Origin: Anaerovibrio lipolyticus LB2005
GTDB lineage: Bacteria; Bacillota; Negativicutes; Selenomonadales; Selenomonadaceae
Reading direction: 5' to 3'
Length of the DNA stretch: 64,000 nt
NCBI RefSeq assembly: GCF_000621545.1
Contig: NZ_JHYA01000001.1
Location: 276,872 to 340,871, forward strand
Position 1 is the first letter of the stretch; every line of letters starts with the position of its first letter. Positions 29,084-60,691 of the stretch are shown here, piece after piece. The notes below the pieces were generated by a model. The model searched no databases, had not been told where the DNA came from, and saw nothing but the letters and a program-made list of their open reading frames with translations. The position numbers and the translations under genes were made by a program.

Positions 29084-30328
29084 TCAGCGGTCAATGTCCT
29101 CAATAGCCTGGGCTGCACCCATAATGCCAATTACAGCATGCTCGAAGGTGACGCCCCCCTGCATATATACGTTGTATGGAGCACGCATTGGGCCATCAGC
29201 ACTAAGCTCTATGGATGCCCCCTGTACGAAGGTACCTGCCGCCATAATAATCTGGTCCTCATAGCCTGGCATATCCCATGGCTCAGGAGCGGCAAAGGAA
29301 TCCACCGGTGAATACTTCTGAATACCCCCGCAGAAGGCAATGAGATTTTCAGGAGTATCCAGCTGTACAGCCTGAATAATATCTCCACGCACATCAGTAG
29401 GCAATGGCAGAGTTTTATATCCCAATTTACTGAACAAACCAGCAGCAAATACTGCACCCTTTATAGCCTGAGCCACCACATGAGGAGCCATAAAGAAGCC
29501 CTGGAAAATCATGCGGTTATTTGCCAGAGATGCTCCCAGCTCGTCACCCATACCTGGGGAAGTCATTCTGTAGGAAGCCAGCTCCACCAACTCGTCCTTG
29601 CCACAGATATAACCGCCGGTAAGGGCAATACCGCCACCCGGGTTCTTGATAAGGGAGCCCGCCATGATATCTGCGCCCACCTGTACTGGCTCTCTTGTAT
29701 CCACGAATTCACCGTAGCAGTTATCAACAAAGCACACACAATCAGGCTTAATACGATGCACCTCAGCACAAATAGCCTCAATATCATCAATGCTCAATGG
29801 ATCACGCATGGAATAGCCACGTGAGCGCTGGATAAGCACCATCTTGGTATCCGGTGTCAGCTTACCCTCAATTCCAGCCATATCTACCTTGCCATCCACC
29901 ATATCAAGCTCATCGTATTTTATTCCAAATTCCTTTAGGGAGCCCTTGCTCTCAGAAGCATAGCCGATTACAGTCTGCATAGTGTCGTATGGAGCACCGG
30001 TAATGGACAGCAGCTTATCACCGGGACGCAGAATACCAAAAAGTACAGTAGCCAAAGTGTGGGTACCGGATACAAACTGGGTACGAACCAAAGCCCTTTC
30101 TGCCCCAAACACCTTGGCAAACAGCTCGTCTGCCTTCATACGGCCAACATCACTATATGCGTATCCCGATGTAGTATTGAAATGTGATTCCCCCACCTGA
30201 CACTCCCGCATAGCATCCAATACCTTTAAAGTATTGGCCTCAGCAATAGAGTCAATACGATCAAACATAGGCTGACTTTCAGCCAACACCTGCTTTTTTA
30301 ATTCAATTAATTTCTCAGAAAATGCCAT
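29084..30328 (-). CDS. Methionine gamma-lyase-family PLP protein (YnbB/aluminium-resistance family)
   Basis: 414 residues. PLP fold type I; SHFNTTSGYAYSDVGR near the start, VRTQFVSGTHTLATVLFG, CFVDNCYGEFVD and AGSLIKNPGGGIA with the PLP lysine. The family lies beside hflX in many Firmicutes, as here (hflX stop is 22 bp upstream of this start). Described as Cys/Met metabolism or aluminium resistance; the reaction is unproven. Confidence 0.9.
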   Translation of the reverse strand: MAFSEKLIELKKQVLAESQPMFDRIDSIAEANTLKVLDAMRECQVGESHFNTTSGYAYSDVGRMKADELFAKVFGAERALVRTQFVSGTHTLATVLFGILRPGDKLLSITGAPYDTMQTVIGYASESKGSLKEFGIKYDELDMVDGKVDMAGIEGKLTPDTKMVLIQRSRGYSMRDPLSIDDIEAICAEVHRIKPDCVCFVDNCYGEFVDTREPVQVGADIMAGSLIKNPGGGIALTGGYICGKDELVELASYRMTSPGMGDELGASLANNRMIFQGFFMAPHVVAQAIKGAVFAAGLFSKLGYKTLPLPTDVRGDIIQAVQLDTPENLIAFCGGIQKYSPVDSFAAPEPWDMPGYEDQIIMAAGTFVQGASIELSADGPMRAPYNVYMQGGVTFEHAVIGIMGAAQAIEDIDR

Positions 30329-30349: not shown

Positions 30350-32158
30350 TTAAATTTCATATTGCTTATATGTTTCAGCATCGGTTACAGGAAGCTCAAC
30401 CTCCAATACCGTGCCCTTTTCATCATAATCTGTTTTAAGAACATTGCCATCTTCATGGAGACGGGTGATCACATTTCCTTCAGTATATGGAATGCACAAT
30501 TTTATAATCACCTTCCCCTGATTAAAGAAGGAGGCCAGCTTGTCCCTCAGCTTTTGCAAGTCCTCGGATTTTTTGGCAGAAATAACAACACCTTCACGGC
30601 CCTGCAGCATCCGCTGGGCATCAAAATCAGTGCCACCCTTTTCCATTAGCCTGTCAGCCTTGTTAAACACGAAAATGGCAGGCTTTTCCTTTGCCCCGAT
30701 TTCATCCAGTACCTTAATAACGGCCTTTATTTGCAGCTCGTAATTAGGGTCGCTGGCGTCTACCACGTGGACCAGCAAATCTGCCTCTGTGGTTTCCTCA
30801 AGAGTTGCTTGAAAAGCGCTTACCAAGGTATGAGGTAATTTCTGAATAAAGCCTACAGTATCTGTAAGAAGAATCTGAAGCTTTTCATCCAGATCCACCA
30901 GACGGGTAGTAGGGTCAAGGGTGGCAAACAGCTTATCCTCAGCCAAAACATCAGAATCTGACAAAGCATTGAGGATAGTGGATTTGCCTGCATTTGTATA
31001 TCCCACCAAGGCCGCAGAAGCCAGTCTTGACTGTTTGCGCTGATTACGATGTAGCTTGCGCTGATTTTTCAGCTTCTTAAGCTGTTCCTCCAAATCGTGG
31101 ATTCGCCCATGTATCCGACGACGGTCCATTTCCAGCTTGGTTTCACCAGGACCACGGGTACCTATACCGCCGCCCAGTCTGGACATAACCAGTCCCTGGC
31201 CGCCTAATCTTGGCAGATTGTACTTCAGCTGAGCCAGCTCAACCTGTAATTTGCCGGCACTGGAACGGGCCCGCTGGGCAAAAATATCCAATATCAGAGC
31301 TGTCCTGTCCACCACCCGAAGGCCGGTGCTTAGCTCTAAATTACGCTGCTGGGATGGGGAAATTTCGTCATCAATCACCAGCAGGTCCGCCTCCACATTC
31401 TGGGCCAGCATGGCGATTTCCTCCACCTTGCCCTTTCCAAGAAAATAGGCATTATCCGGCTTGTCCTTGTTCTGGATAACCTCACCCACTATTTCTGCCC
31501 CAGCAGTTTCCACTAAGCCACGAAGCTCCGCCAAAGAGTCCTCCACCTGCCAGTCATCCCTGCGGGAGCTGAAGGCTACACCAGCCAAAATAGCCTTTTC
31601 TGTATGTTCCTCCGTGTCCTTAAGGCGATTCTTCCCCAGTGCATTATTTACCAGCACAATAAGCTGAACCAAATCAATATTGTTCAGCTCCTTCAATGGC
31701 AGCTCCTTGGTACCACTTACCATATAACCGCCATCCTCAGTCAGCTCACCGTTAAGAAAGGCCAGACTGCCATAAATTTTATTGTCCTTTTTGAGACCAA
31801 TGGCCACCATGCAGTCAAATCGCATACTCCTAAGGGAGGACAAATCTGGGGCCGAAAGTCTTGTATCAGCACTGGGATGGGTATGAACACAGCGAATACC
31901 AGATAAGCGGATGGCGCTTCTCTGCTTAATATCCGGCAGCTCCACAGTGGCATCATCACCAATGGAAACCTGCACTACAGTTCCCTTGCGGTTAATGTAC
32001 ACTGCCACCTCACGGCCCAAAATCCCCGTAAGCTCCAGCATTTTTTCCGCTGCCTCCCGGGTAATAATCTGTCCCTGGGGAATTTCCAATTCATAAAGGG
32101 CCTCCAACTCCTGGATAACCCCTGATTTTATGTTGTCCAGCTTACCATTTACAACCAT
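30350..32158 (-). CDS. hflX: GTPase HflX with N-terminal JAMM-like domain
   Basis: 602 residues against about 420 in the core family. The HflX core runs from about residue 188 (AILAGVAFSS) through ISPSQQRNLE, the conserved GGIGTRGPGETKLEMDRRR, and the G domain (GYTNAGKSTILNAL at about 386, DTVGFIQKLP, NKAD). It is a ribosome-binding GTPase that can rescue stalled ribosomes. The first about 150 residues contain a complete JAMM signature: E50, then H92-x-H94, seven residues, S102, two residues, D105. This pattern is typical of zinc isopeptidases of the MPN/JAB fold. AAGGTG precedes the ATG. Domain activity is inference. Confidence 0.92.
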   Translation of the reverse strand: MVVNGKLDNIKSGVIQELEALYELEIPQGQIITREAAEKMLELTGILGREVAVYINRKGTVVQVSIGDDATVELPDIKQRSAIRLSGIRCVHTHPSADTRLSAPDLSSLRSMRFDCMVAIGLKKDNKIYGSLAFLNGELTEDGGYMVSGTKELPLKELNNIDLVQLIVLVNNALGKNRLKDTEEHTEKAILAGVAFSSRRDDWQVEDSLAELRGLVETAGAEIVGEVIQNKDKPDNAYFLGKGKVEEIAMLAQNVEADLLVIDDEISPSQQRNLELSTGLRVVDRTALILDIFAQRARSSAGKLQVELAQLKYNLPRLGGQGLVMSRLGGGIGTRGPGETKLEMDRRRIHGRIHDLEEQLKKLKNQRKLHRNQRKQSRLASAALVGYTNAGKSTILNALSDSDVLAEDKLFATLDPTTRLVDLDEKLQILLTDTVGFIQKLPHTLVSAFQATLEETTEADLLVHVVDASDPNYELQIKAVIKVLDEIGAKEKPAIFVFNKADRLMEKGGTDFDAQRMLQGREGVVISAKKSEDLQKLRDKLASFFNQGKVIIKLCIPYTEGNVITRLHEDGNVLKTDYDEKGTVLEVELPVTDAETYKQYEI

Positions 32159-32172
32159 AAATCACCTTAAAA

Positions 32173-33174
32173 TCATCTGTTAATGATGTTTTGAATATTT
32201 TTCAGGGTAATGGACATGGAACCGTCCTCCTCCTTGAAAAATTCCACAAAATCTGTATTTTCAAAATAATCAGTAGGAATAGTAATCTCAATCCCTGTAT
32301 CAGTGCTGAGCTTATGCTTTTTCATCTTTTTCAGGGTAGCCTCCTGATTTACCTCCACAGGCTCCGAAAAACCGGCTGTTTCAATAGCGTGATTGTAGTC
32401 AGCCGCCATGGAAGGATTATCCTGGAACACCTCACGGCCAACAGCCACAGGATCCAGTACAGCATCCTTTTCCATATTTTCAGCAATGAAGTTCTTTACG
32501 GCAGTAACTGCTGCTACCTCATCCTGGCAATAGGCTTCAGTGACCTTCTTCACTGCCTTGTTGATTTCCTTTATGGTCTCAGCGGGAGACGGGGTCTGGG
32601 CACATTCCAGAAACAATTCGGGAATAAGATATATGCTATTGCCATCCACATTGTATTTTCGCGACTTGGAAAGAATTTCCATGGTCTCACAGTTAATAAA
32701 AACGAATTCGTCAATTTTCTGGGTAAGGCCAGGAAGAATAGCATAATTATTAACCAATTCAGTGGATACCTTGCCATTTTCATCCACATTAATCTGATGT
32801 ACATAGCCCTGATGATTGTTGCATTTAAAGATAACCAAATATCTTGTTTCATCAATGCGGGCATCACATATAAGCAAATCCGTGGATGAAACGGCCTCTG
32901 CTGTGGTCAGTACCTTATAAAGAGCCCCTGCCACCTGACGGGAAAAATCTATAAATTCCATTTCCCCGCCAATATAGCCATCAAGCATAACCTTAAATTC
33001 GCTGTTGCCATAGAAGCTGCCCTTCTTGGCGTCCTGGCTGGAAATGGTCTTTTCCACATGCTTAATGAGAAACTCCGCTGTAGCCTCATTCATTTCCAAC
33101 AAGTCGTCTGAAAAAACCTCATTGGATTCATTTACATCTAAAATATGAAGAATAGCCTTTTCAATAACAACCAT
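32173..33174 (-). CDS. Nucleoid-associated protein (NdpA/YejK, NA37 family)
   Basis: 333 residues. The N-terminus (KAILHILDVNESNEVFSDDLLE) and FLIKHVEKTISSQDAKKGSF match the 37-kDa nucleoid-associated family, as do TRYLVIFKCNN and the C-terminal GIEITIPTDYFENTDFVEF. Members bind DNA and are spread among Gram-negatives and Firmicutes; their role is unclear. GAGGTG precedes the ATG. The gene sits 15 bp upstream of hflX and downstream of the DUF554 terminator. Confidence 0.85.
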   Translation of the reverse strand: MVVIEKAILHILDVNESNEVFSDDLLEMNEATAEFLIKHVEKTISSQDAKKGSFYGNSEFKVMLDGYIGGEMEFIDFSRQVAGALYKVLTTAEAVSSTDLLICDARIDETRYLVIFKCNNHQGYVHQINVDENGKVSTELVNNYAILPGLTQKIDEFVFINCETMEILSKSRKYNVDGNSIYLIPELFLECAQTPSPAETIKEINKAVKKVTEAYCQDEVAAVTAVKNFIAENMEKDAVLDPVAVGREVFQDNPSMAADYNHAIETAGFSEPVEVNQEATLKKMKKHKLSTDTGIEITIPTDYFENTDFVEFFKEEDGSMSITLKNIQNIINR

Positions 33175-60391: not shown

Positions 60392-60691
60392 TTACATAGC
60401 AGCTTCGTCAACTGCATAAACGCTAACCTGACGGTTATAACGACCCTTGCGCTCGAAAGCTACACGGCCATCAATCTTAGCGAACAGGGTATCGTCCTTA
60501 CCAATACCAACATTGGTACCTGGGTGGAAATGAGTTCCACGCTGACGAACCAGAATGCTGCCTGCAGTTACAACGGTGCCAGCCTGCTCCTTAACACCAA
60601 GGCGCTTTGCCTCAGAGTCACGACCATTACGGGTGCTGGACACACCTTTCTTATGTGCGAAAAGCTGTAAATCAAAAGTGAACATTAACAT
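60392..60691 (-). CDS. rpmA: Ribosomal protein L27 (bL27) with cleavable N-terminus
   Basis: 99 residues. [22 protein letters not shown]: the FDLQLF-A segment is the Firmicute N-terminal extension that Prp removes, leaving AHKKG at the ribosomal A/P-site region. The ATG at 60691 shares a base with the prp stop; the ATG at 60685 has better spacing from AGGAGG. Confidence 0.97.

Follow-up and report, generated by a model that had tools for sequence, protein, structure and literature searches.

A predicted JAMM metalloprotease domain at the N-terminus of the long-form HflX of Anaerovibrio lipolyticus

The long-form hflX gene and its JAMM signature

The window considered here is the whole stretch of 64,000 nucleotides analysed from Anaerovibrio lipolyticus LB2005 (contig NZ_JHYA01000001.1, positions 276,872 to 340,871), and it contains a long form of hflX whose sequence places, within a single reading frame, an N-terminal domain with the complete JAMM metalloprotease signature ahead of the GTPase HflX. 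Anaerovibrio is a genus within the Negativicutes, Bacillota (taxonomy lookup), and the closest named database proteins also come from it, their first 190 residues being 96% and 93% identical to those of the window protein. The protein belongs to the HflX family, as it scores 470.3 bits against the equivalog TIGR03156 (cut-off 216.75; residues 188-543), and GTP-dependent ribosome splitting may be inferred from this membership. A family profile search places PF13167, PF16360 and MMR_HSR1 in that order along the protein, and PF13167 is matched only once in the 2.68-Mb genome, by this HflX. A preliminary description of the DNA had put about 150 residues in front of HflX proper; the extension is present and is longer than that, with TIGR03156 starting at residue 188 and PF13167 at residue 206. 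The features of the gene are as follows.

30350..32158 (-), hflX, long form, 602 amino acids (list of open reading frames; TIGR03156 GTP_HflX)
31673..32074 (-), MPN/JAMM-fold core, residues about 29-162 (AlphaFold2 model and VIA-align matches)
32009..32011 (-), E50, predicted general acid-base Glu (residue; role by analogy, PMC300881)
31898..31960 (-), flexible loop ahead of the H-x-H strand, residues 67-87 (predicted local confidence, pLDDT)
31883..31885 (-), H92, predicted zinc ligand (residue)
31877..31879 (-), H94, predicted zinc ligand (residue)
31853..31855 (-), S102, predicted oxyanion-stabilising Ser (residue; role by analogy, PMC300881)
31844..31846 (-), D105, predicted zinc ligand (residue)
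31613..31624 (-), low-confidence linker from the JAMM domain to HflX proper, residues 179-182 (full-length model)
31277..31543 (-), HflX N-terminal domain, PF13167, residues 206-294 (profile match)
31037..31273 (-), HflX middle (helical) domain, PF16360, residues 296-374 (profile match)
30659..31015 (-), GTPase domain, PF01926, residues 382-500 (profile match)

Residues 50, 92, 94, 102 and 105 are E, H, H, S and D, with the exact spacing that the preliminary description had reported (HTH, seven residues, S, two residues, D), and the protein matches the JAMM motif EXnH[S/T]HX7SXXD as the cited part of PMC300881 defines it. The complete pattern appeared in 11 of 200,000 shuffles of the protein, and within the window it is unique to hflX among 342 open stretches of at least 60 amino acids.

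Fold of the N-terminal domain

Fold, zinc binding and activity are predicted properties of the domain. AlphaFold2 gives it an MPN-like structure and not one unlike that fold, and VIA-align places it against JAMM proteins mostly from model residue 24-25 to 157-161 (about residues 28-165, since model residue n is protein residue n+4). The closest structural match is PfJAMM1, accompanied by a further PfJAMM1 structure that contains SAMP2, and the best Foldseek match is 2qlc_A, a RadC protein. Profile similarity extends to proven JAMM members, with sst2/AMSH-LP at E 2.4e-4 to 7.6e-4. The curated cut-off of Pfam PF14464 Prok-JAB (25 bits) is not reached, with scores of 14.1 bits for the full length and 16.6 for the domain alone, and for this reason the domain is not filed under that family. 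With PF04002 (RadC) no match of the window protein is listed up to E 10, a range in which the HMMER filters drop most matches above 0.1, and the profile is matched by the domain sequences of 8 of 30 relatives at E <= 0.1.

Two regions of lower confidence stand out. The loop ahead of the H-x-H strand has pLDDT blocks of 67 and 66 over model residues 61-80, and presumably corresponds in position to the insertion that JAMM deubiquitinases have on their substrate side. In the full-length model (predicted template-modelling score, pTM, 0.60) pLDDT lies below 50 at model residues 175-178, which form the linker, and because of this the model makes no prediction of where on the ribosome the JAMM domain is positioned.

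Conservation of the catalytic residues

All five residues are found in 30 of 30 loci (window locus included) from a similarity search that used no motif filter, and in 81 of 81 members of a named set made up of the window and 80 loci, three frames of which are shorter than full length. The 80 loci were retrieved by patterns for the E stretch or the HTH stretch, and the wholly independent tests there are S102 and D105 only. They represent 80 of the 333 relatives in a scan of genome contigs and are all Bacillota (35 Negativicutes, 29 Clostridia and 16 without class). Identity of the domain to that of the window protein is only 26-54% in the first 29 relatives. A phylum sample of 199 genomes gave 41 matches to the family model, reduced to 40 by removal of G100, which is RadC by sequence, and restored to 41 by G150, which was added by eye from the long HflX frames. 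Within these 41 domain-bearing genomes E/H/H/S/D is intact in 35. Conservation across the long forms, which the preliminary description had named as a check, therefore holds in all three sets apart from six degenerate copies in the last, and the MPN-like predicted structure together with the retention of E50, H92, H94, S102 and D105 in most long forms supports the JAMM identity of the domain.

Distribution and history

HflX (PF16360) occurs in 157 of the 199 phylum-sample genomes, which include all 40 domain-bearing genomes. A class sample (n=120) has HflX in 91 genomes, the domain in 88 and both in 87. The domain-bearing protein is thus the usual form of HflX in Negativicutes (87 of 91), is present in 40 of the 157 HflX genomes of the phylum sample, and also occurs in Fusobacterium. 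The class-sample genomes that have HflX without the domain are G303, G217, G218 and G265. The first of these (L213) belongs to the genus of the window itself; its HflX is short and the inspected frames hold no JAMM trace, so that the domain can be absent in close relatives. The only domain without HflX in the class sample is that of G300 (L220), where the frames encoding the JAMM part are broken and lie at the end of a contig, and PF16360 is matched nowhere else in the genome; its hflX is eroding or misassembled.

Named carriers include Sporomusa, Pelosinus, Caloramator, Anaerobacterium, Succiniclasticum and Anaerovibrio slackiae. Outside Bacillota the sole matches found were in two plasmid-collection records, from Fusobacterium vincentii and F. 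animalis, both of which have NREINIAID and HTHPGGNPHLSSVD. These Fusobacterium hflX genes, with intact JAMM motif, lie at L212:3004-4806 and L211:3001-3537. The records filed as plasmids measure 218,756 and 2,108,235 bases, and the 2,108,235-base record is, judging by its size, probably a chromosome. Phage records gave no match at E <= 0.001.

On an HflX-core tree of 80 rows (34 intact, six degenerate, the rest being 40 drawn from the 116 HflX genomes of the sample in which no domain was detected) presence of the domain is scattered, with 16 changes. For the intact label, starred branches force only two. The tree is weak in its deep branches, and rows L006 and L012 are badly truncated. Our tentative reading of the history would be one ancient fusion followed by repeated losses. 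A search for stand-alone versions gave 62 proteins, and among the eight inspected no free-standing JAMM family was established: three (P0122, P0124 and P0125) appear to continue in a different frame inside HflX, two (P0152 and P0183) resemble partial HflX, and P0132 breaks off. P0142 (201 amino acids, 17 contigs) and P0156 (186 amino acids, 7 contigs) carry the JAMM domain and stop where HflX begins or earlier; they are either cut HflX genes or a free form.

Genome neighbourhood

The genes on either side of hflX are the following.

29084..30328 (-), pyridoxal phosphate enzyme of the methionine gamma-lyase family (PF06838), 21 bases downstream of hflX (profile match)
32173..33174 (-), NA37 nucleoid-associated protein, 14 bases upstream of hflX (PF04245, E 3.3e-40)

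For 38 of the 81 loci, window included, the flanks contain a PF06838 relative, some flanks being cut short by contig ends. Judged by inspection of the sequences, a SpoVK-like gene lies upstream in 20 of the 81 and a LexA-like gene on the opposite strand in 17. The 22 largest neighbour clusters of the 81 loci do not include the NA37 gene. From its ordinary hflX neighbourhood we infer that the window gene is a resident hflX and not a mobile copy.

Proposed function and its alternatives

What could a metalloprotease domain contribute to a ribosome-splitting GTPase? Staphylococcus aureus HflX binds between the two ribosomal subunits and splits both 70S ribosomes and hibernating 100S particles (cited part of PMC7196661). 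The one mapped HflX N-terminal extension that we found, the mycobacterial one, lies at the subunit interface, passing uL16 and H38 and reaching the H69-H71 junction (cited passages of PMC12493154). Taken as a whole, the best explanation is that the predicted JAMM domain is a likely active zinc hydrolase that HflX would carry to the ribosome, where it would cut a ribosome-bound protein; we regard this as on balance probable. The preliminary description had likewise suggested cleavage of a protein on stalled ribosomes, a step that is more tentative than the JAMM identity itself. Like the HflX proteins that have been studied, the GTP-bound form would dock at the intersubunit face of ribosomes that are stalled or idle. 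On its flexible tether the JAMM domain would thereby reach the subunit interface and may cut a protein tail or the side-chain link of a ribosome-bound protein during splitting. A candidate substrate would be a hibernation factor such as long HPF. Long HPF (PF16321) is present in 34 of the 35 intact carriers, the exception being G076 (a draft, 95% complete). An RqcH-type NFACT protein (PF05833) occurs in all 35, with G090 giving a partial match in a short frame at a contig end. Both are possible partners and compatible with the proposal, and as they are nearly ubiquitous in intact carriers their counts do not discriminate.

A bolder version, offered tentatively, makes this widespread anaerobe-type HflX a ribosome-triggered metalloprotease, in which docking and splitting deliver the JAMM domain onto a specific ribosome-bound protein and proteolysis renders rescue or wake-up irreversible. 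This would be a bacterial analogue of the Rpn11-like arrangement in which JAMM cleavage is coupled to an NTPase machine, with halanaerobial 'MPN-minus' versions keeping docking only. If the protease works, ribosome rescue in a large group of anaerobes includes a proteolytic step, of which we found no study.

The points that weigh against a proteolytic role come mainly from the degenerate copies. These occur in G117, G039, G177, G152, G179 and G150, from four families; in G152 and G179 both His residues are lost with E, S and D retained, and in the other four most catalytic positions are gone. A search with the G039 protein returned eight homologues. Five have names (Candidatus Frackibacter, Acetohalobium arabaticum, Selenihalanaerobacter, Sporohalobacter and Fuchsiella), and Acetohalobium belongs to the order Halanaerobiales. 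H-x-H is absent from 8 of 8, and the stretches NRRGEV and RLSG(L/I)RC are kept in 8 of 8, so that the fold, and possibly a binding face, is retained without catalysis. As far as their sequences go, these lineages show that catalysis is not the sole possible use of the domain, and together with the short HflX of G303 they show that a cell can manage without it. The main rival is accordingly architectural: an MPN-fold aid to docking or splitting, comparable to the mycobacterial extension or to dead MPN-minus subunits, for which catalysis is irrelevant. It gains from the persistence of degenerate copies in 6 of 41 sampled genomes and from the structural role, in rRNA disordering, given to the mycobacterial extension in the cited part of PMC12493154. 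It is nonetheless unlikely, as 35 of the 41 keep every catalytic residue, Glu and Ser included, despite the low identities noted above. On the proteolytic proposal, lineages that lost H-x-H and kept the domain would be left with docking or splitting alone, and the dead-site versions offer a natural control that separates splitting from cutting. Such domains are found at L144, L145, L148, L149, L150 and L152 and in P0184-P0191, in Halanaerobiales (f40) and three more families.

That the domain hydrolyses a bond of another kind than the peptide bond on the split 50S, such as the ester of peptidyl-tRNA, is improbable, since no JAMM enzyme is known to cleave peptidyl-tRNA. What speaks for it is that a figure legend in PMC7196661 marks the peptidyl-tRNA-hydrolysing factor of these disassembly pathways as unknown, and that the loop of the HflX helical domain extends to the peptidyl transferase centre (cited part of PMC12493154).

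Removal of ThiS/MoaD-type ubiquitin-like modifiers from ribosomal proteins fits the closeness to PfJAMM1, solved also with SAMP2, and the PF02597 match in 26 of the 35 intact carriers. Archaeal and Thermus JAMM enzymes remove modifiers of this type from their targets. No PF02597 match (E <= 0.001) exists, however, in the other nine intact genomes (G000, G029, G083, G053, G182, G170, G156, G023 and G106), among them the window's own 100%-complete genome; such modifiers are thus rejected as the general substrate, and this reading is very improbable. Modifier families other than PF02597 are possible substrates.

Trimming of the bL27 N-terminal leader is hardly credible. The bL27 tail is located near the HflX site, but Prp is the protease of bL27 and is present in 29 of the 35 carriers. 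Among the genomes inspected, the leader occurs in 4 of 4 that are Prp-positive and bL27 is leaderless (from MAHKK) in 5 of 5 that are Prp-negative, the tenth, G125, yielding no bL27. In these genomes the leader tracks Prp, which contradicts the assignment of this job to the domain. The bL27 gene of the window (60425-60658, minus strand) has a Prp-type leader, MFTFDLQLF, ahead of AHKKG.

Comparison with known systems

Both parts of the protein are known families, and the novelty is their fusion with a conserved active site. The preliminary description had been aware of no JAMM role for long HflX, and our searches of the open-access PubMed Central (PMC) literature gave none and no description of such a fusion. 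The HflX literature covered, as far as the cited parts go, treats the protein as a ribosome splitter alone; a 2025 review (PMC12493154) notes extended HflX in Clostridium and Paenibacilli, with no protease mentioned in the passages cited, and a term search finds 'HflX' absent from PMC1779556.

Canonical short HflX shares the GTPase, N-terminal and middle domains and often an adjoining PF06838 gene, and differs from the window protein in lacking its approximately 185 extra N-terminal residues with the JAMM domain. All five of the best-scoring solved HflX chains represent the short form, with 418-483 residues. Those of 418-426 residues we take to be the E. coli and Listeria proteins. The mycobacterial extension is likewise an N-terminal addition to HflX, of 39-58 residues (cited part of PMC12493154) as against about 185 in a predicted folded domain here. 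RadC (PF04002) is also a bacterial protein of JAMM fold and supplies the best Foldseek match, but where the window protein has HTHP the RadC-like protein at L151 has HNHP. With the MPN+/JAMM metalloproteases (PfJAMM1, AfJAMM, Rpn11, CSN5, AMSH/sst2) the domain shares the exact motif, the predicted fold and, for AMSH/sst2, profile similarity; it differs in being fused to a ribosome-splitting GTPase with no evident ubiquitin-like partner, and its activity is predicted. The dead-site HflX copies, finally, parallel the MPN-minus subunits and would be their bacterial counterpart.
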